Below, piece after piece: positions 25,110 to 34,158 of a stretch of DNA of 34,158 bases. The DNA comes from a virus. Each line of letters opens with the position of its first letter. Positions within the stretch are counted from its first letter, which is position 1. A model generated the notes under the pieces. The model worked only from the letters and a program-made list of their open reading frames with translations. It ran no database searches and was not told the origin of the DNA. Where the stretch lies: the IMG/VR virus record IMGVR_UViG_3300017744_000063, positions 1 to 34,158 of that record; one strand, 5' to 3'. The position numbers and the translations under genes were made by a program.

Positions 25110-26393
25110 ATGTTCTATCTTATCGAAACAAAAAATCAACTAAACAAGCTAAAAGACAAATTATCTGCTAGTGAATCACCTTATCTTGAATTTATTCAGG
25201 GTAATGATAATACACATCCTGCGTTAGCAGAAATAATAGCGGTTTACCTTAATATAAACTTTAAAAGTTATATAATACCAATCAACCACACAGAATGTAT
25301 AAATTGGGACAAAGATGCTGTATTTAGTATGTTAGCAAATTATGAGTTTTGTGTTTTAGATAAAAAAGCCGCTTTACACGCGGCCCCACACATATCTTAT
25401 ACGGATATACAACATACAATAGCCCCTTTAGACCAACATACAACTCAAGCACACCAATGGTATTACCGAAAATTCCCACATACTAAGGTAAATAAAATGA
25501 TACCTATTGGAAAACACCTAGAACGCTGTGAAGCTAAGTTACGCGCTATAATCGATTATTCTCCCGAAGAAACTAATGAATATTTTAACAATATATTATT
25601 GCCTGTCTTACATGAGTTAGAGAAGAATGCATTAAAATTCAATAGCAAGTTTGATGACTATTTTACACTAAAAAATAAAAAATTCTCCATAAAAGAAGAT
25701 CATATATACGGATGGTATAACCCATACACCACAACCGGAAGACCTGTAAATAACTTCAATGGATTAAATTTTGTTGGACTAAAACACGAAAACGGAGAAC
25801 GAGATTGTTTCGAACCAGACAACAACTTTTTTGTAGAAATGGATTATGATGGCTATCATCCCCGTCTAATAGGCGATATAGTTGACTATCAATTCGAAGG
25901 CAACGTACACAACACACTCGCAGAAATTTATTTTAAATCCAAAGAAATTACACCCGAACAATATAAGAAAAGCAAAACACTTACATTTAAACAGATATAT
26001 GGGGGTATAGACAAGGCGAACTTACATCATCCTTTTTTCTTTAAAACACAACAGTTTATAGATATAATTTGGGAAGAATTTAATAAGAAAGGAGAAATCA
26101 AATGTGGTAGTTATACTATAAAAAAGAAAGACCATCCTAAAATTCATTCACAAAAATTATTTAATTATTACATACAGGCAACCGAAACAGAAACCAACAT
26201 TCGTAAGATAAAAATCATACAAGATTATTTAAAAGACAAACAAACAAAATTAGTTCTTTACATATATGATGCATTTATATTTGACGTAGCTAAATCCGAT
26301 GGTAAGGAAACACTAATCGATTTAAAAACAATACTTAATGACAAGTTTCCTGTAAAATTAAAAACAGGAAAACATTATGGTGTTTTGAGTTAA
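25110..26393 (+). CDS. DNA polymerase I-like (family A) protein with altered motifs
   Basis: The protein has 427 residues, far below a full Pol I. The C-terminal 230 residues show the family-A layout: TTTGRPVNNFNGLNF (compare TGRLSS.PNLQN), motif A VEMDYDGYHPRL with D245, motif B KTLTFKQIYGG with K289, F293 and Y297, and motif C YIYDAFIFDV with D387. Both catalytic aspartates are kept. However, the steric-gate Glu of motif A is His250, the motif B Arg four residues before Lys289 is Tyr, and HDE of motif C is YDA. The first 190 residues (YIIPINHTE, LDKKAALHAAP) vaguely resemble an inactive 3'-5' exonuclease domain. Its Arg codons are mostly CGN (6 of 7) while neighbours prefer AGA, and its start has a GATAAGG stretch. 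It may replicate or repair phage DNA; activity is uncertain. I recall similar proteins in uncultured marine phages. Confidence 0.8.
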   Translation: MFYLIETKNQLNKLKDKLSASESPYLEFIQGNDNTHPALAEIIAVYLNINFKSYIIPINHTECINWDKDAVFSMLANYEFCVLDKKAALHAAPHISYTDIQHTIAPLDQHTTQAHQWYYRKFPHTKVNKMIPIGKHLERCEAKLRAIIDYSPEETNEYFNNILLPVLHELEKNALKFNSKFDDYFTLKNKKFSIKEDHIYGWYNPYTTTGRPVNNFNGLNFVGLKHENGERDCFEPDNNFFVEMDYDGYHPRLIGDIVDYQFEGNVHNTLAEIYFKSKEITPEQYKKSKTLTFKQIYGGIDKANLHHPFFFKTQQFIDIIWEEFNKKGEIKCGSYTIKKKDHPKIHSQKLFNYYIQATETETNIRKIKIIQDYLKDKQTKLVLYIYDAFIFDVAKSDGKETLIDLKTILNDKFPVKLKTGKHYGVLS

Positions 26394-26424: not shown

Positions 26425-26817
26425 ATGAATAATCGATTATACTGTACATTTACAACAGTAGATGCTTATGAAGAAGTAGCTAATACTATTCAGACATCTT
26501 ATGTAATTCTTTTTAATAAACTTTTTGTATTAGAAAGTTTGGATAAAGAAAAAATTATGCTTACATATAATGTAGACATGAATAATTCTACAAAAGAATC
26601 TATGGTAGATAATACTATTTTAGTACACAGAAAAAAACAAACAAATACTTTATATACAATTAATGCACTTAATGAATTAATAAAGGAATTAAACAATGGA
26701 ATTTTAGATAAAACATTCGCTATAAATTGGAATAATTATAAAAATTGTATACTACTAATTCAAGCAGAAGGATTTAATCGTATAGATACAAAAGTAAAAG
26801 ATATAATAAACTTATAA
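26425..26817 (+). CDS. Conserved small protein of unknown function
   Basis: The protein has 130 residues. It begins MNNRLYCTFTTVDAYEEVAN, has strand-like segments YVILFNKLFVLESL and IMLTYNVDM, a conserved-looking centre HRKKQTNTLYTINALNELIKE, and FAINWNNYKNCILLI near the end. I recall the RLYCTFTT...HRKK.TNTLYTINALN pattern in other marine T4-like phages, always without a function. It reads like a small alpha/beta protein. Its stop overlaps the start of the next gene by one base (TAATG), so it is coupled to the cassette of leader-bearing proteins and shares their putative late promoter. A role in their folding or in head morphogenesis is possible but not shown. Confidence 0.7.
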   Translation: MNNRLYCTFTTVDAYEEVANTIQTSYVILFNKLFVLESLDKEKIMLTYNVDMNNSTKESMVDNTILVHRKKQTNTLYTINALNELIKELNNGILDKTFAINWNNYKNCILLIQAEGFNRIDTKVKDIINL

Positions 26818-29741
26818 TGAAAAATATAGCTAGAATATTAAAACATGCACTTAGAAAAAATGCAGAAAAGTTAATAAAACAAGAAAAAGATTTTATATTT
26901 GAAGGATCTTGGTGTGATAGATTTCAACAATCCATAAAAGATGGTACCGCCGAAGAGCTCTTTGGTTATGTAAAACCAAAAGAAAACTTAGTAGAACATA
27001 ATGCTTCTTTTACTTGTAATCCTTATCAAAATAGGGCACCAAATGATTGGTCAACTCCCGTAGGTCCTGCTGATGCTTGTGCAGCTGCTGGAAAGGCTAT
27101 TAAATGTGAAGCAATAAATCCAAATTATAATGGAAGTATACAAAATATATGCGATCCGGGTTCTGGAGGTATAATACCAGGATATCCTTTTAATGATGCA
27201 TGTCATGGTTATCCACAAACTAGAATAAAATTATATGCACCCACTCTTAATATGTGGCAGGGAGGAAATCATTGTCATGATGCATGGACACCTGTTGTAG
27301 GTGATTATATGTTATCTCATGGTGGTAGTGGAGGTGGTTGGATCCCTTGGCTTATAATAGAGTCTAATAATTTTGATGACTCTTGTAGTGGTCCTCGTAG
27401 GGGACACTTTGAATGTGGTTGGACAGCTGCTGGTTGTATGGATTCAACAGCTACAAATTATAGTCCAACTTTTCAAAATGATTGTACACAAGAACCTTCA
27501 TACCCAGCTAATTGTATAGGAGGAGCAACAGGAGCAAATTGTTGTTGTACTTATGCAGGTCCAGGTTGTACAGATCCAAATGCAGATAATACTAGTCCTG
27601 GAGCTACTTCTGATGATGGTTCTTGTCAATATGGAGGATGTACTGATCCAACAGCAACAAATTATAGTTTTCCAAATAGTAACCCCCAAGTAACCCAAAA
27701 TGGAGATCCATATGATGGAGACCCTTCAACAGGTAATGGTGGTACTGCTGTAGATGATGGATCTTGTCAAGTTCCAAATCCAGGTTGTTTAAATTGTCCT
27801 AATTGTTCTAATTATGACCCAACAGCAACATCAGACGATGGTTCTTGTTTAGGATGTACAGATAATACAGCTACAAACTATGAACCAAATGCTGATGTAG
27901 ATGATGGTTCATGTACTTATCCAGTACCAGGTTGTACGGACCCATTAGCAACTAATTACGACCCTACAGCAACTGTAGATGATGGTTCATGTCAATATGT
28001 TAATGGTTGTACAGATAATGCAGCAAGCAATTTTAACCAAAATGCAGTGGCAGATGATGGATCATGTGAATATATGGGTTGTACAGACCCATCAGCATTA
28101 AATTATAGTTTTGCAGGTAGTAATCCTCCTGTAACAGCAAATAATGATCCTTTTGATCCAACAGGTAATGGTGGTGTTGCTATAGATGATGGTTCTTGTC
28201 AATATGGAGGATGTACAGATCCAGTAGCTATTAATTATGATCCTAATGCAAATGTAGATGATGGTTCTTGTGTTTATTTAAGTTTTGATTGTGTACAAGG
28301 ACTTTGTGAAGAAAATATAGATGGAACAGGTACACATGCTTCTTTACCTGATTGTTTAGCATCTCAAGAATGTGATAGATGGGAATGTGTAGAAGAATGG
28401 GTCCCAACACCTATTGGCCCTGCTGATATACCAAAAGATAAAGCAATAGGAGAAGCAGCAACTAATATGTTAAAAGAACAAGGCCAAATAGGAATTGACC
28501 CTATATTAACAGTTGATGATTTAGCAGATAAATTTTGTGTAGAACCTCCAGGAGGTTGCCCTGCTTTACAAGCACCATGGGGATCAATCCCAACAATGTG
28601 GCAACCATATCCTATTTGTAAATGTTTAGCTCCAACTGTAAAACCTCCACCAGGATCAATAGTTAATGGTTGTTATAGATGTGATGATGGTAGATATGAT
28701 CCTATAACTAAAACATGGGATCCAGAATGTGTGTTTTTAGAGGAAGAAGAATGTGAAGAAAAATGTATACCTAAAGGTTGTACAGATCCAACTGCATTAA
28801 ATTATGATCCTAATGCACAAGTAGATGATGGGAGTTGTGAATATCCTAGTTGTGATAATCTTCCTTTATTACTTGCAAATCCAGGTCTAGGAGTATTAGG
28901 TTCAAATGCACCATATATTCAAGATGCATACGATATGGGTCAAACAAATGGTCAAATTAATGGAGTATTAGATGGAAATAGTGTATTTTGTTTAGAAGTA
29001 TGTGGTGGATTTACAGGCACTTTAAATCCCAATCTATTTCCTTGTGATTGTTGTGGTCCAAAAAATTGTGAAGAAATGGGGACTCATCCTAATGCAATAC
29101 CTGTTGATTGTATTACATGTGGAATACCTAATCCTGCTTATACAGGAACTTGTCATAACATAACTAATTGGCAAACATTATCTACATATCCACCAAATAC
29201 AATTTTTTATAATACAATGGCAGATTGTCAAGCAAATATAGGTAATGATGAATCATGTGTACCACCACCACCTAGTTGTAAAAATGATCCAACTTTTTGT
29301 TCAACGAATCCTTATTTAACACCAGGGGGAGAATGTTGGATATGTCATATGATGACTGAATGTATGCCTGTTTATGATTATTTACAATATGGTTCTGGCC
29401 CTCCAGGTTCAGTTGGTACTCAAACATTTATGATGAATTGGTTAACAAAAGTAGGAAGCACTTTCCAAACACCTCAAGGTAGTGATTTATATTGTACTGA
29501 ACAAGATTGTATGAATGCAACAGGATGTAGTGCTTATAGTGGTTATTCTCCAATAGCTAAAAAAGCAGACCCTGCTTTAGATACAGAATTGCCTATAGAT
29601 GATTTTAGTAAGGATATAGCTCAAGCAATTGAAGAACCTATAGAAGAACCTGAAAAAAGAATACAAGAAGGTGTTCAGATACGAGGAAAATTATTAAATA
29701 AATTAAGAATGTCTAAATTAGCAAATATAAAGAAAAAATAA
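26817..29741 (+). CDS. Large Cys-rich repeat protein with putative capsid-targeting leader
   Basis: The protein has 974 residues. Residues 1-29 form a basic amphipathic helix (ARILKHALRKNAEKLIKQE) ending in IFE, just before GSWCDRF; this fits a leader cut by a prohead protease after [I/L]xE. Residues about 206-485 hold nine Cys-rich repeats of the type GCTDPTATNYDPNATVDDGSC and a tenth lies at about 653-674. Their DPNANVDDG core is rich in Asp and Asn and may bind calcium. Other Cys-pair segments include CWICHMMTEC and a GGCPALQAPWGSIP...WQP module also found in the 32028 product. The C-terminus is Lys-rich. There is no hydrophobic signal peptide or T9SS C-terminal domain, although the repeats resemble Bacteroidetes secreted proteins. 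It is either a head-packaged or a surface-adhesion protein; I favour the former because of the leader shared with its neighbours. Confidence 0.7.
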   Translation: MKNIARILKHALRKNAEKLIKQEKDFIFEGSWCDRFQQSIKDGTAEELFGYVKPKENLVEHNASFTCNPYQNRAPNDWSTPVGPADACAAAGKAIKCEAINPNYNGSIQNICDPGSGGIIPGYPFNDACHGYPQTRIKLYAPTLNMWQGGNHCHDAWTPVVGDYMLSHGGSGGGWIPWLIIESNNFDDSCSGPRRGHFECGWTAAGCMDSTATNYSPTFQNDCTQEPSYPANCIGGATGANCCCTYAGPGCTDPNADNTSPGATSDDGSCQYGGCTDPTATNYSFPNSNPQVTQNGDPYDGDPSTGNGGTAVDDGSCQVPNPGCLNCPNCSNYDPTATSDDGSCLGCTDNTATNYEPNADVDDGSCTYPVPGCTDPLATNYDPTATVDDGSCQYVNGCTDNAASNFNQNAVADDGSCEYMGCTDPSALNYSFAGSNPPVTANNDPFDPTGNGGVAIDDGSCQYGGCTDPVAINYDPNANVDDGSCVYLSFDCVQGLCEENIDGTGTHASLPDCLASQECDRWECVEEWVPTPIGPADIPKDKAIGEAATNMLKEQGQIGIDPILTVDDLADKFCVEPPGGCPALQAPWGSIPTMWQPYPICKCLAPTVKPPPGSIVNGCYRCDDGRYDPITKTWDPECVFLEEEECEEKCIPKGCTDPTALNYDPNAQVDDGSCEYPSCDNLPLLLANPGLGVLGSNAPYIQDAYDMGQTNGQINGVLDGNSVFCLEVCGGFTGTLNPNLFPCDCCGPKNCEEMGTHPNAIPVDCITCGIPNPAYTGTCHNITNWQTLSTYPPNTIFYNTMADCQANIGNDESCVPPPPSCKNDPTFCSTNPYLTPGGECWICHMMTECMPVYDYLQYGSGPPGSVGTQTFMMNWLTKVGSTFQTPQGSDLYCTEQDCMNATGCSAYSGYSPIAKKADPALDTELPIDDFSKDIAQAIEEPIEEPEKRIQEGVQIRGKLLNKLRMSKLANIKKK
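27432..28838 (+). repeat. Ten GCTDP...DDGSC repeats (about 63 bases each, with longer variants)
   Basis: Nine copies fall in 27432-28272 and one at 28776-28838. The consensus unit is GCTDPxAxNYDPNAxVDDGSC. Two copies carry a similar long insertion (NYSF..SNP.VT.N.DP.D...TGNGG.A.DDGSC), which shows that a longer unit was itself duplicated. Confidence 0.9.
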
Positions 29742-31039
29742 TGAACAAATCTCAATTAAAAAAACTAATAAAAAAAACTCTTAATGAGTTACAAAAAGAA
29801 GAAATATTATCTGAAAGAAAATGGTGTTCTAGACGAAAATTAGGTAAATCTTGTGATGGTGGAGATGGACGTGGTAATGGTACATGGACAAACACAGTTA
29901 ATGGATGTCAATGTAGTTATGCGGGTATGACTCATGATTGGATGAAAGCACCACCATCAGACCCAACAGGTGCTAATGCAAAAATAACGGCAGGTGGACC
30001 TTGTTATTGTGTACATTATCAGACGCAACCAGATGGAAGTAACATATGTAAAAAATGGAGTCCTCCTGGATGTGGTGATGCTCCATTTAAAATGAGAGAT
30101 TTAGTAAGAAATATAAGAGAATCTATTAAAAAAATAATAAGTGAACAAGACGATAGTAACATTTGGCAAGGAGGTGATATAGGTTGTACTACAATGTTAT
30201 CTGCAACAGATCCAGCATGTGCTAAATGTTCTGATCATTTTGCTGCAGGAAGTCCTCCTCCTTATATAGGATTTGGAGCTAACAATTCAGGTCCTAATTG
30301 TGAATGTTGTGACATTGAAATCAACACAGGAACAGGAGATGAACCTACTATAGATTGTGAAAATAATCCAACTGATGATTGTTGGGTTTGTCATGGGGAT
30401 CCTCAAAGTGGTGGATCTTGTGTACAAATGAGTAATATTTCAGCTATGCCTGCAGGATGGTTAAATAATGTTGGAATACCTCAAGGATTCACTTTTTATA
30501 ATGATGAAGCTACATGTTTAGCAGCAGGTCCAGAATGTGGTCCTACTCAATCTCCAACAATTGATTTACCATGTAAAGATTTAATAGCTCAAGACCCAAC
30601 AGCTCATGCTAAATGTTGTAAAAATGATTGTAAAGGTAAAGGTCTTACACCAAATCATCCATGTATACCATATTGTAAATGTTGTACAAGTCCAATAAAA
30701 AAAGATCCAAAAGGAAATGTAACTACTAAAAAAGCAATAAAAGAAATGTATAAAGCTTTTAGTAAATTAAAATCATTAAATGAACAATCAAGTGGATGGC
30801 AAGCTAATTTTGCAAGAAGAACAGAACAACCTCATGGAATGCCTGGAATAACTAATTGTACATTTATAAATAATAGAATAAACCACTGGAATAATAAATT
30901 AACTACTGCGGGACTAAACCAAACAGCTGTTTTAAATAATAAATTAGATCATATAAGAACTACTCCCCGATATAATTGCTGTACAAATCAAACATGTTCC
31001 CCAGGCACTTCTTGGTGGCAAGGACAAGGAGTTATTTAA
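29741..31039 (+). CDS. Cys-rich protein with three leader-like helices (possible polyprotein)
   Basis: The protein has 432 residues and starts in a one-base overlap with the previous stop. Residues 1-25 (SQLKKLIKKTLNELQKEEILSE) form a leader ending LSE before RKWCSRR. A second similar helix occurs inside, MRDLVRNIRESIKKIISE (118-135), before QDDSNIWQGG, and a third, KEMYKAFSKLKSLNE (about 334-348), before QSSGWQANF. Each ends in [I/L]xE, so a gp21-type protease could release three Cys-containing modules. The modules contain closely spaced cysteines (CECCDIEIN, CKCCTSPIKKD) and the segment DDCWVCHGDPQSGGSC...FYNDEATCLA, resembling a segment of the preceding product. Enzymatic motifs are not seen. 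It is a candidate head-internal protein. Confidence 0.68.
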   Translation: MNKSQLKKLIKKTLNELQKEEILSERKWCSRRKLGKSCDGGDGRGNGTWTNTVNGCQCSYAGMTHDWMKAPPSDPTGANAKITAGGPCYCVHYQTQPDGSNICKKWSPPGCGDAPFKMRDLVRNIRESIKKIISEQDDSNIWQGGDIGCTTMLSATDPACAKCSDHFAAGSPPPYIGFGANNSGPNCECCDIEINTGTGDEPTIDCENNPTDDCWVCHGDPQSGGSCVQMSNISAMPAGWLNNVGIPQGFTFYNDEATCLAAGPECGPTQSPTIDLPCKDLIAQDPTAHAKCCKNDCKGKGLTPNHPCIPYCKCCTSPIKKDPKGNVTTKKAIKEMYKAFSKLKSLNEQSSGWQANFARRTEQPHGMPGITNCTFINNRINHWNNKLTTAGLNQTAVLNNKLDHIRTTPRYNCCTNQTCSPGTSWWQGQGVI

Positions 31040-31053
31040 AAGAAAAAAATGAA

Positions 31054-31458
31054 ATGAAAAAATCTGAATTAAGAAATATAATCAGAGAAATCATTATAGA
31101 GACAGTAAGTAAAGAAACTATAAATGAATGTTGGAAGGGATATGTAAAAAAAGGCATGAAAAAAAAGGGTAATAAAATGGTCCCTAATTGTGTTCCTGTA
31201 AATGAAGATGTAGATGAAAATTTAAGAAAATGGTTTAAAGATGAAGATTGGGTACGTATTGATACACAAGGTAATATAGCAGGTAAATGTGGTACAATGA
31301 AAAAAGGTAAAAAAACACAACGTTGTTTACCTAGAAAAAAAGCTCAATCACTTTCAAAGAAACAAAGAGCAGCAACATCAAGAAAAAAAACTAAGAGTAG
31401 TAAACAATATGTATCAAACACCAAAGCAGCTGGTGGACGTAAAAAAAGAAAAAAATGA
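31054..31458 (+). CDS. Small, highly basic leader-bearing protein (DUF5872-like pattern)
   Basis: The ATG at 31054 is preferred because it begins the leader MKKSELRNIIREIIIETVSK and lies 14 bases after the upstream stop; the frame is open further upstream but only within the previous gene. The product has 134 residues. The leader runs to INE (23-25), before CWKGYVKKG. The rest contains ENLRKWFKDEDWVRIDTQG, then CGTMKKGKKTQRCLPRKKAQ and SLSKKQRAATSRKKTK, a pattern I recall from a domain of unknown function in phages and some other genomes (DUF5872-like, from memory and unverified). The C-terminus is nearly all Lys and Arg. Charge suggests binding to DNA, as expected for a protein packaged beside the genome. 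It overlaps the next gene by four bases (ATGA). Confidence 0.7.
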   Translation: MKKSELRNIIREIIIETVSKETINECWKGYVKKGMKKKGNKMVPNCVPVNEDVDENLRKWFKDEDWVRIDTQGNIAGKCGTMKKGKKTQRCLPRKKAQSLSKKQRAATSRKKTKSSKQYVSNTKAAGGRKKRKK

Positions 31459-32018
31459 CAAATACAGAATTAAGAGAACTTATAAGAGAAAGTTTTAATG
31501 AAATACTTACTGAAAAACTTTGCCCAAAAGGTAAAGCATATGTTGCTAGACGTAAAGCAGCAGGTGAAAAACATGGTGCTTATTTAATGGGTAGAGCTGT
31601 TAAAGTATGTAAGGGTCAAATGAGTGGTACAAAGAAGAAGAAAAAGAAAAACGAAGAATTATATGAAGTTTATACTATAGAATCTTCAGGTGAAATTCAA
31701 ATGATTGAAGATGCTCTTAATGAAGAATATTGTCCTTCATGTGCTGCTAAAATGGAAATAGAAGAAGCTAAGAAAAAAGGTAAATGTAAACCTTCAAAAG
31801 GTAAACGTTTTGCTAAAAGAGTAAATGGTAAATGTAGATCTTTTGGTCAAAAAGGTAAAGCTAAAAAAGGAGGCGATCGTATAAGACCTGGAACAGCTAA
31901 AGGTCATGCATACTGTGCTCGTTCAGCTAAAATTAAAAAATGTAAAAATCCACCTTGTGCAAATGCATTATCTAGAAAAAAATGGAAATGTCAAGGAAGC
32001 AGATCAGTACCTGAATAA
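31455..32018 (+). CDS. Basic leader-bearing protein with two modules
   Basis: The protein has 187 residues. The leader TELRELIRESFNEILTE ends LTE (18-20) before KLCPKGKAYVARRKAAGEK. After a Lys6 run a second, acidic helix (EIQMIEDALNE, ending at 90) precedes EYCPSCAAKMEIEEA, so two modules might be released. The second module has KCKPSKGKRFAKRVNGKCRSFG and GGDRIRPGTAKGHAYCARSA, then CANALSRKKWKCQG; I recall this GDRIRPGT..G.AYCARSA...C..PPCAN.LSRKKWKC text from other marine phages, with no known role. Cysteines and strong positive charge may indicate metal-stabilised nucleic-acid binding. Coupled to the previous gene by an ATGA overlap. Confidence 0.7.
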   Translation: MTNTELRELIRESFNEILTEKLCPKGKAYVARRKAAGEKHGAYLMGRAVKVCKGQMSGTKKKKKKNEELYEVYTIESSGEIQMIEDALNEEYCPSCAAKMEIEEAKKKGKCKPSKGKRFAKRVNGKCRSFGQKGKAKKGGDRIRPGTAKGHAYCARSAKIKKCKNPPCANALSRKKWKCQGSRSVPE

Positions 32019-32027
32019 AATATTAAA

Positions 32028-33392
32028 ATGAAAAAATCAAAATTAAGAAATATAATCAGACAAGTAATTAAGGAACATATTCATCCTACATTAGGAAATT
32101 ATGCTCATCATATAGACCCTAATAATCCTTCAGCAACAGTAACTTCTCTTTATGGGGGTCCACCCCCATTACAAGGTAATGGAACTCATTTATATGATTA
32201 TAAAGCAAATATATGCCCTGCAAAATATGCTATGCATTATTTTGGAACTCCAAATGGTATACCATTAGCAGACGCAGGAAATTGGGTATGGTTAAATCAA
32301 CAATATTCTCAAGCTGGTATACAGAATGTTGTTCCAATACCTGTTCCAAATGCTCAAGGTCAAATTCCACCAAATACTCAAATGTTTGATTGTTTTCAAG
32401 TACATCCAGTAGCAGAACAATGGTATCAACCTTATATGCAACCAGCTGTTTCAAATGGTGCACCTCCATTAGGAAACGGATCTTTTGCTGATTTACCTCA
32501 AATACAAGGTCAATATTCAGCTATGCAACAAGGTGTAGCAGATGGTTGGTTATATCCAGGGGGTATTGCTCAATGTAATTCTGATTGTGCAGCTTTAGCT
32601 GTAGATTATGATGAGTGTAGTCCACCACCTGGTGGGTGTCCTCCTTTATCTACACCTAGTGGACCTATTGCGTCAATATGGCAACCATTCCCAAATTGTC
32701 GATGTCTTTCTCCTTATCCTGGAACAGGAAATACAGGAACAGGAATTCATACATTAGATCCTACTTTAACAGTAGCTACGGGAGTGCTTGCTAAGGATTT
32801 AGCATGTCAATGTTGTGATAATGGGTATCCAATAAGTATGAATCCTATTCCATTTAATACTGTAGGAGGATGTTCATCATTAAATGGAGGTAGTTTTTAT
32901 GGTTGTGCAGATTCTACAACATTTGACCCAAAAGCTTGTGAAAGAAGAAGAGGAGGTGATGATGTAATAAATTGTACATGTTGTGATGATTTAAATCCAG
33001 GAACAGGATTAAGTCCTAATCCACCAATATCAGTTGGTACCCCAGGAGGATGCTCTTCATTAAATGGTCCTTATGGAAGTACTGTACTTTCAGGATGTGA
33101 AGAATCTTCAATATGGAACGTAAGTAGTTGTGAACCTATTAATCCTTGTGATTCATGGATAGATCCTGGTTATCAAGGAAGAACTTGTTGTGAATGGTGT
33201 AATAATATAGGATGGCCATCTATAGCTCCTACAAATATATCTTGTGGAGGTACAGGAGCGGGAGGTGATCCTTCTGGAGCTAATAACTGGTTTTGTGAAT
33301 GTTGTCCAGAAGGTTTAATGATTCCTCCAACTGATGATGAAGAAATAGAAAGAATGAAAAAATTAGCGGGTATTCCTAAAAGAGAATTATAA
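32028..33392 (+). CDS. Cys/Pro-rich leader-bearing protein
   Basis: The protein has 454 residues. The leader MKKSKLRNIIRQVIKE ends IKE (14-16), before HIHPTLGNYAHH. Its DNA shares the 20 bases AATTAAGAAATATAATCAGA with the leader of the 31054 gene. The first half is rich in Pro, Gly, Gln and aromatic residues; the second half has Cys pairs (LACQCCDNG, NCTCCDD, RTCCEWCNN, FCECCPEG) and two similar GGCSSLNG segments. A module GGCPPLSTPSGPI...WQPFPNC repeats one in the 26817 product. The C-terminus DDEEIERMKKLAGIPKREL resembles a motif found at the ends of several marine phage head proteins. It is the last gene of the cassette; function unknown. Confidence 0.68.
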   Translation: MKKSKLRNIIRQVIKEHIHPTLGNYAHHIDPNNPSATVTSLYGGPPPLQGNGTHLYDYKANICPAKYAMHYFGTPNGIPLADAGNWVWLNQQYSQAGIQNVVPIPVPNAQGQIPPNTQMFDCFQVHPVAEQWYQPYMQPAVSNGAPPLGNGSFADLPQIQGQYSAMQQGVADGWLYPGGIAQCNSDCAALAVDYDECSPPPGGCPPLSTPSGPIASIWQPFPNCRCLSPYPGTGNTGTGIHTLDPTLTVATGVLAKDLACQCCDNGYPISMNPIPFNTVGGCSSLNGGSFYGCADSTTFDPKACERRRGGDDVINCTCCDDLNPGTGLSPNPPISVGTPGGCSSLNGPYGSTVLSGCEESSIWNVSSCEPINPCDSWIDPGYQGRTCCEWCNNIGWPSIAPTNISCGGTGAGGDPSGANNWFCECCPEGLMIPPTDDEEIERMKKLAGIPKREL

Positions 33393-33472: not shown

Positions 33473-34158
33473 ATGGATTTAAATGAAATCAAGAAACGTT
33501 TAAACAAATTAAACAACAAAGGGGGAGGTGGCTCTAGCGACTTCAAAAACAATTTTTGGAGACCACCAGTAGGTGAAAAATCAGTAGTAAGAATAGTACC
33601 TTACACACACAACAAAGACTTTCCATTTTCGGAATTATACTTTTACTTCGGTATTGGTAAACCAAGAATGATTGCTTTGTCTAACTTTAGTGAGTCAGAT
33701 CCAATTATGGAATTTGCTACTGAATTAAAAAAATCAGGCGACAAAGAAAACGCTGAATTAGCTAAAAAATTATGGCCTAAACTTAGAGTTTTCGCTCCAG
33801 TAGTAGTAAGAGGAGAAGAAGACAAAGGAGTTAGGTTTTATGAATTTGGAAAAATGGTTTATCAAGAACTATTAGGTGTTATGGCTGACGAAGATTATGG
33901 TGATATTACAGACATTCAAAAAGGTCGTGATGTTACTGTGGAAGTAATTCCAGCAGCAGAAACAGGTAAAATGTTTAACACAACAACAATCCGTGTTAAA
34001 CCAAACCAAACACCATTGGTAGATGATGCTACAAAAGCAACATCACTTTTAGAAGATCAAAAGGATTTAGTTTCTTTATTTAAGAAATATACTTTTGAAG
34101 AAATGAAGGACGAATTACAAGGTTATTTAAAACCAGCTGAAGAAGATGGAGGTAAAGA
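33473..34158 (+). CDS. 32: gp32-like single-stranded DNA-binding protein (3' truncated)
   Basis: The frame starts at the ATG at 33473 and runs off the window after 228 codons. The product begins MDLNEIKKRLNKLNNKGGGG, a basic start suited to the cooperative self-binding role of the T4 gp32 N-terminus, then FWRPPVGEKSVVRIVPYTHN, PFSELYFYFGIGKPRMI, VRFYEFGKMVYQELLGVMAD and GRDVTVEVIPAAETG, which matches the OB-fold core of T4-like gp32 proteins. The visible C-terminal part turns acidic and helical, as in T4, where the acidic tail binds other replication proteins. No cysteine occurs in the visible sequence, so the zinc site of T4 gp32 is absent. The protein covers single-stranded DNA in replication and recombination. 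Confidence 0.8.
   Translation, partial: MDLNEIKKRLNKLNNKGGGGSSDFKNNFWRPPVGEKSVVRIVPYTHNKDFPFSELYFYFGIGKPRMIALSNFSESDPIMEFATELKKSGDKENAELAKKLWPKLRVFAPVVVRGEEDKGVRFYEFGKMVYQELLGVMADEDYGDITDIQKGRDVTVEVIPAAETGKMFNTTTIRVKPNQTPLVDDATKATSLLEDQKDLVSLFKKYTFEEMKDELQGYLKPAEEDGGK

Follow-up and report, generated by a model that had tools for sequence, protein, structure and literature searches.

Why should five consecutive phage genes, whose products differ in the cargo that follows, all begin with a short charged amphipathic helix ending in [I/L]xE? The genes lie in a 34,158-base virus record from a collection of the IMG/VR type, analysed here over its full length (the window). A preliminary description had read the shared N-termini as leaders, removed by a gp21-type protease, that load a set of Cys-rich and strongly basic proteins into the phage head. 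The window encodes PhoH, a head-tail adaptor, tail sheath, tube, baseplate hub, a polA-like protein and SSB, and one of its proteins is 52% identical to a protein of Flavobacterium phage immuto over 73% of its length. This gene content, together with the immuto match, places the phage, a marine relative of immuto, among T4-like myoviruses. The cassette quite probably encodes accessory internal head proteins resembling those of T4, in which a scaffold-like tail and a multi-domain cargo separable by the protease would be new.

The five open reading frames, their leaders and their [I/L]xE positions were all recovered at the places first described, in a compact + strand run with ATG starts and gene ends that overlap or nearly do so. 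Gene 1 (26817..29741; 974 aa, Cys-rich, acidic) opens with a leader of residues 1-29 ending in IFE (26817..26903) and contains 10 GC[T/M/L]x units of the kind GCTDPxAxNYxPxAxxDDGSC, starting at residues 206-654; we know of no T4 counterpart of these Cys-rich repeats. Its C-terminal tail, GVQIRGKLLNKLRMSKLANIKKK (29670..29738), follows IQE and resembles the scaffold tail (RMQKLANI). Gene 2 (29741..31039; 432 aa, Cys-rich) has its leader at 29741..29815 and two internal leader-like segments recognised by eye, one ending in ISE (residues 116-135; 30086..30145) and one in LNE (residues 330-348; 30728..30784). Gene 3 (31054..31458; 134 aa) consists of a leader ending in INE (31054..31128), a CWxGY domain ending in VNE (31129..31206), an LRxWFKxEDW domain (31222..31389) and a basic end. 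Gene 4 (31455..32018; 187 aa) comprises a leader ending in LTE (31455..31514), a KLCxxGKxY domain (31515..31628), an internal LNE linker (31689..31724) and a CARS...WKC domain (31905..31997). Gene 5 (32028..33392; 454 aa, Cys-rich, acidic) carries a leader ending in IKE (32028..32075) and a C-terminal tail, DDEEIERMKKLAGIPKREL (33333..33389), like that of the scaffold; the Mel-JY01 scaffold ends in VVERMKKLAGIVK. Neither the scaffold-like tails of genes 1 and 5 nor the internal leader-like segments of genes 2 and 4 had been noted before. Isoelectric points of the products of genes 1-5 are 4.1, 8.2, 10.3, 9.9 and 4.7, and Cys contents are 7.1, 7.4, 3.0, 5.3 and 6.2%. Thus, the characterisation of the cargo as Cys-rich and strongly basic holds only in part, three of the five proteins (pI 4.1, 8.2 and 4.7) not being strongly basic. 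Genes 1 and 5 also share a segment (28575-28634 and 32655-32714; BLASTP E 1.7e-4, 55% over 20 residues), and the two tail-bearing proteins therefore have a piece of cargo in common.

The leader is common to otherwise unrelated proteins, as are T4-type capsid-targeting sequences (CTS). An N-terminal pattern based on the leaders, and shaped partly on the window's own rows, matched 44 of 1581 distinct ORFs and none after one shuffle per N-terminus. Widened by one residue to fit the 26817 leader, it found four cassette ORFs and no others among 21 + strand window ORFs, a set that excludes those already encountered at other loci; 31054 escaped detection because its start was called too far upstream. 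With a slightly looser pattern, leaders of the window's type (class A) exceeded the shuffle mean in immuto (4 vs 0.65), G002 (7 vs 0.35) and G009 (2 vs 0.25), and numbered 0 in each of G007, G014 and G018, three of the six genomes or contigs examined thus showing no enrichment. A class A leader is also present on immuto gp114 (L002:21526-21945), encoded beside baseplate genes, and on a similar-looking ORF of G009 (L217:15682-16026); leaders of the gp114 type either have another role or belong to a head protein that is oddly placed. In all, the leader-type proteins of immuto comprise gp003, gp072, gp076, gp080, gp092, gp094 and gp114.

[I/L]xE is present in all five leaders, the point on which the argument for cleavage was originally built, but taken alone this is weak. 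After shuffling, residues 9-32 would contain one or more [I/L]xE with a probability of 0.41, 0.69, 0.69, 0.50 and 0.23 for genes 1-5, respectively (product ~0.02), and the leaders of 29741, 31054 and 31455 each hold two or three candidate sites. Among 61 non-redundant class A matches, some of which are chance matches (terminase N-termini, lipoprotein signals), 25 had [I/L]xE in the 12 residues after the core, a number that none of 1000 shuffles reached, compared with 13.2 after shuffling. The mirror motif Ex[I/L] was observed in 16 of the same 61 and E fell at helix-spaced registers (-2, +2, +6), indicating that helix periodicity explains part of the excess. In AlphaFold models of low to middling confidence (mean pLDDT 71.6 for gene 3 and 63.6 for gene 4), the gene 4 leader is predicted as a helix over residues 3-20 that ends at the predicted site, and the gene 3 leader as a helix over residues 3-33 that continues beyond it.

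Placement of the motif at the boundaries of cargo domains was also examined. In distinct contexts, [ILMV]xE stands directly before the domain start in 18 of 25 for KLCxxGKxY, 22 of 25 for GLKYHI, 6 of 6 for KFASK and 40 of 46 for LRxWFK, where the preceding E could be part of the domain, against a baseline of 2.2%; the contexts are related and the counts are therefore not independent. CPxATQ domains have no immediate site (0 of 18), with one lying within four further residues in 10 of the 18, and CWxGY has a site in one of its two contexts. Sixteen rows of the gene 4 alignment share an invariant junction E, which in 14 of them stands immediately before [K/E]LC, and the sequence upstream mostly changes. 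The proposal that [I/L]xE marks the cut fares differently from gene to gene: LTE/KLCP of 31455, whose junction is conserved in relatives, is a well-supported candidate cut site, IFE/G (26817) and INE/C (31054) are candidates with moderate support from relatives, and the sites predicted in 29741 and 32028 are read from the motif itself.

The tails provide a link to the prohead scaffold. The core of the scaffold tail, [MWF]x[KRQ]LA[GN][IL], is found at the end of 42 of 43 scaffolds of the group, themselves found by an N-terminal motif. It also occurs at the C-terminus of 13 further ORFs, at least three of which are scaffolds overlooked by the filter; the frequency of the core inside ORFs predicts 0.8 per 2635 ORFs. 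The 13 include genes 1 and 5, the only cassette members with this tail, and a gene 1 homologue in the same hotspot (L040:1087-2472), which has a similar leader ending in LQE, and LNE followed by the tail GLQLKGKLLNTSRMTKLANIKKK. The AIADAK-type N-terminal region of the scaffold is absent from genes 1 and 5. Leader and tail tend to occur together, as among non-scaffold ORFs five have both, 125 the leader only, 8 the tail only and 2945 neither (Fisher P 1.2e-4); after removal of the window, the gene 1 homologues and two missed scaffolds, the association is thin (2, 121, 6 and 2905, respectively; P 0.039). In RB14, S-PRM1 and P-SSM3, gp22 has different C-terminal residues, yet an E is present shortly before the last ~20. 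The tail core [F/M/L]QKLAGI was also seen in the first 45 residues of three ORFs (L001:1676-2140, L133:6353-6853 and L106:5774-6394), about the number expected by chance (2.0).

The preliminary description had called for a gp21-type protease, and for the same leader on head proteins, elsewhere in the genome. A Peptidase_S77 search of the 34-kb window record gave no match, nor did the control genomes, which leaves this negative uninformative. The head genes fall just beyond the window and are present, upstream of PhoH, in contig L120, whose neck protein is 100% identical to that of the window over 412 residues. Pfam matches in L120 comprise Peptidase_S77, the gp21 type (E 4e-29), Gp23 (2.7e-79) and T4 portal (2.1e-44), and a scaffold is also present; the expected protease thus exists in the same lineage, outside the window. 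With the L120 protease as query, tblastn matched 2532 phage records, and the majority of the 40 matches listed were annotated as prohead or head maturation protease. The Gp23 capsid protein of L120 carries QLVNE/ANTTG close to the N-terminus; in RB14 gp23 this region contains SFLTE/AEIGG. The leader, too, was found in the head module, on an ORF (MTKEQLRELIKGVIQE...) that adjoins the protease and lies between it and the scaffold. Genes at the gp67/gp68 position have N-termini consisting of a helix and [ILMV]xE, with one of I, L, M or V at P3 in 26 of 27 contexts of the family beside the protease (E being part of the search).

A comparison with virion composition is possible for the T4-like Synechococcus phage S-CREM2, which has a gp21-type protease and for which 52 virion proteins are reported from mass spectrometry (PMC10665884), some virion-associated proteins being, according to the authors, possible purification leftovers (PMC10665884). 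One virion protein, ORF160 (7 unique peptides, 13.1% coverage; PMC10665884 Table 3), has a CWxGY stretch that matches gene 3 (pairwise BLASTP E 4e-6) and overlaps part of phrog_10346, and a WFK stretch that matches the gene 3 WFK profile (hhalign E 6.5e-5, probability 64). LSE, LEE and ISE precede its WFK, CWxGY and last domains, respectively. The relation is distant, since tblastn of gene 3 against 50,697 phage records gave nothing at 1e-5, and S-CREM2 differs from the window phage in belonging to the Kyanoviridae and in its leader type and domain order. Among 250 S-CREM2 ORFs called, which recovered 49 of the 52 virion ORFs, a T4-CTS-like leader was carried by five, and four of these are virion proteins compared with 45 of the 245 others (P 0.006); the pattern was written after the virion N-termini had been seen, so that this enrichment is support and not a blind test. 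Among the reported virion proteins (PMC10665884), SAM hydrolase, cytidylyltransferase, ORF13 and ORF136 have M-x-x-[F/L]-x-x-F-[L/F]-x-E leaders. The portions of that paper available to us make no mention of leaders, targeting, internal proteins or cleavage (PMC10665884).

Further features of S-CREM2 (L374-L383) were observed. A stretch of the form [F/L]..F[L/M/F].E is located at the N-terminus, or close to it, in virion ORFs 6, 12, 13, 14, 136 and 154, which comprise a SAM hydrolase, a Cas9-like nuclease, a kinase-like protein, a cytidylyltransferase and two of unknown type; the stretch lies ~18 residues into the Cas9-like protein, and the kinase-like ORF has a GTG start. Residues 17-70 of ORF160 (L381:2342-3235) match phrog_696 'major head protein' (E 4.8e-10), as if a region of a capsid protein had been reused. 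Comparison of the gene 4 profile with ORF160 was not significant (probability 1.1) and that of gene 4 with ORF137 was marginal (E 0.004), and neither was used. A link to ORF137 through PHROGs that also match gene 3 was dropped, as the families are multi-domain and the matched parts barely overlap.

The cassette occupies a variable accessory locus. To its left are a polA-like gene (25110..26393, +), which matches DNA polymerase A in part (Pfam E 1e-7, a little below the curated cut-off), and, immediately adjacent, a gene of 130 aa (26425..26817, +); to its right is a gp32-like SSB gene (33473..34156, +) truncated at the end of the window. Among 26 loci that extend from the 130-aa gene to SSB, 18 are empty, with a gap of 53-87 bases, and 8 are occupied, and all 8 occupied loci contain one or more leader genes. 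These amount to about five separate cases, because a single gene recurs in L010, L011 and L026, and L022 and L089 represent a single contig. In L005 the polA-like gene is 93% identical and the hotspot is empty. In this respect the locus resembles the accessory internal-protein loci reported for T-even phages (PMC12373910, PMC9026906). The polA-like gene of the window is short (427 aa); at this position immuto has a polymerase A gene of 441 aa, and it has a larger one elsewhere. In L040 (4020-4924), and in matching ORFs of L038 and L039, two short leaderless ORFs, one with a lipoprotein-like N-terminus, separate the cargo genes from SSB.

A second leader, class B (MDNFDL[K/R]KYLAEG), was found on at least 146 ORFs in at least 120 stretches and at least 71 cargo clusters, with conservation extending to about residue 18 and then ending. 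It is unlike class A in sequence and like it in being a fixed N-terminal tag on many cargoes, often side by side. Five class B genes with unrelated cargo are clustered in L072 (two groups), and three or four in each of L075, L239, L276, L283 and L313. An S77 protease was detected in 17 of 29 class B records searched, mostly the longer ones (4 of 5 over 100 kb), and at 11 of 24 gene 3-relative loci searched out of 80 (5 of 5 over 100 kb). One record is common to both sets. Of the nine distinct records longer than 100 kb, all of them selected because they hold gene 3 relatives or the class B leader, eight matched the protease and one, G025 (124 kb and perhaps a fragment), did not. At Pfam E <=1e-5, 103 leader proteins (two of 105 having been dropped for lipoprotein-like N-termini) matched two families, DUF5661 and WYL_2. 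The 103 control ORFs from the same loci, which include at least one gene 3-type protein missed by the leader pattern (L114:7986-8273), matched 16 families, among them thymidylate synthase, primase, nuclease, amidase, portal and protease. Similar tags appear to be carried by many other unknown proteins of related phages.

In the mechanism that we propose, the N-terminal amphipathic leader would tether each protein to the scaffold or the shell as the prohead forms, with the C-terminal scaffold-like tail of genes 1 and 5 as a possible second attachment. The gp21-type protease would then cut after [I/L/V/M]xE at the junction of leader and cargo, in the linkers between domains and before the tail of gene 1, and the small Cys-rich or basic domains would stay in the head with the DNA. 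By analogy with the T4 internal proteins, the cargo would probably be ejected into the host with the DNA and may act early against host defence or on host functions; packaging, cutting, ejection and effector role in the window phage are all steps that we infer. Counter-defence is our leading guess for the role of the cargo, after T4 Ip1-3 (PMC12373910), which are reported to have only the leader in common and each to block its own GmrSD restriction enzyme (PMC9026906, PMC12373910). The original head-loading reading finds support in the S77 protease of the lineage, the leader in the head module, [ILMV]xE at domain starts and the virion relative ORF160, and needs amending with regard to the three proteins that are not strongly basic. 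Genes 1, 3 and 4 are the best supported; the case for gene 5 (leader and tail) is fair, and that for gene 2 is the weakest.

The likeness to T4 IPI-IPIII and Alt lies in a short leader on unrelated accessory proteins, [L/I]xE, an S77 protease and a variable locus. The cassette differs in its leader sequence, mostly K/R-rich and amphipathic, in its apparently unrelated cargo sequences, in large Cys-rich multi-domain cargo and in the scaffold-like C-terminal tail on two members, and delivery is here a prediction. In T4 the targeting signal is described as N-terminal, and Alt as trimmed at its C-terminus too (PMC9026906). The ejection proteins of SPN3US and phiKZ are likewise head proteins with N-terminal propeptides removed by a protease, but the reported cleavage motifs are AxE and SxE and the propeptides are mostly long (PMC5694885, PMC10052503).

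Other explanations of the shared N-termini were considered. If the proteins were extra, scaffold-like subunits of the prohead core, they would be chopped up and lost from the head and nothing would be delivered. The helix and [ILMV]xE N-termini of genes at the gp67/gp68 position, a tail that is the scaffold's own and several internal sites suit such subunits, and T4 core proteins are reported to be cut and mostly removed (PMC9026906). We nevertheless consider this unlikely, as the cargo is Cys-rich or basic with domains in varying combinations, ORF160 peptides were present in purified S-CREM2 virions and 18 of 26 hotspot loci lack any gene, indicating that no gene is needed there for head assembly. 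An uncut helix for docking to the tail, baseplate or neck would account for the leader on immuto gp114, adjoining baseplate genes; the scaffold tail, the leader protein of the head module and [ILMV]xE at domain starts accord instead with the head and its protease, making a docking role very improbable.

Near-identical N-termini on unrelated proteins in variable loci, with class B on its at least 146 ORFs and 71 cargo clusters, could also represent a recombination seam of accessory genes whose products are made in the host cytoplasm and never packaged. We give this little credence, because leader sequence and cargo vary whereas the junction residues and the scaffold tail are found repeatedly, and because of the virion enrichment of CTS-like leaders in S-CREM2, post hoc as that pattern was. 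The weakness of [I/L]xE by itself (P ~0.02) would allow E/L/K-rich N-termini to be alike by chance, an explanation whose probability becomes almost negligible against the 44 pattern matches compared with 0 after shuffling and the junction and tail tests.

If the reading as packaged accessory head proteins is correct, leaders and tails readable from sequence would pick out unknown genes of T4-like phages whose products travel in the particle, would turn phage-carried proteins into a list testable by mass spectrometry and would offer tags for head loading. The scaffold-like tail would constitute a second packaging signal beside the N-terminal one described for T4 (PMC9026906). A broader proposal, that leader and scaffold-tail copy form a two-tag loading code on protease-split multi-domain proteins and mark very many undescribed packaged families in aquatic phages, is advanced tentatively, its chances falling just short of even. 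A literature search, in which few subscription papers were covered, found no title or abstract describing these leaders or the scaffold-tail copy.

The cargo itself gave few matches. No relatives of gene 2 were detected in a scan of viral contigs, nor of gene 5 in searches that included such a scan. The five proteins matched nothing in Pfam and PADLOC, and in NCBIfam gave only two matches, both far under the cut-offs. A PDB sequence search returned nothing for gene 1 and, with the gene 3 profile, three rows at E 0.44-0.61; Foldseek with the gene 3 model gave no useful match (best E 2.5). A cellular origin of the gene 3 domain was considered and rejected, as the six relatives on genome contigs all lie on MAG contigs of 5-29 kb. 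In 11 phage records (Vibrio and Roseobacter; 40-58 kb), unannotated proteins contain parts that show 50-71% identity to the C-terminal portion of gene 4 (31842-32009, residues about 130-185); this domain is therefore not confined to T4-like phages and moves between very different phages.
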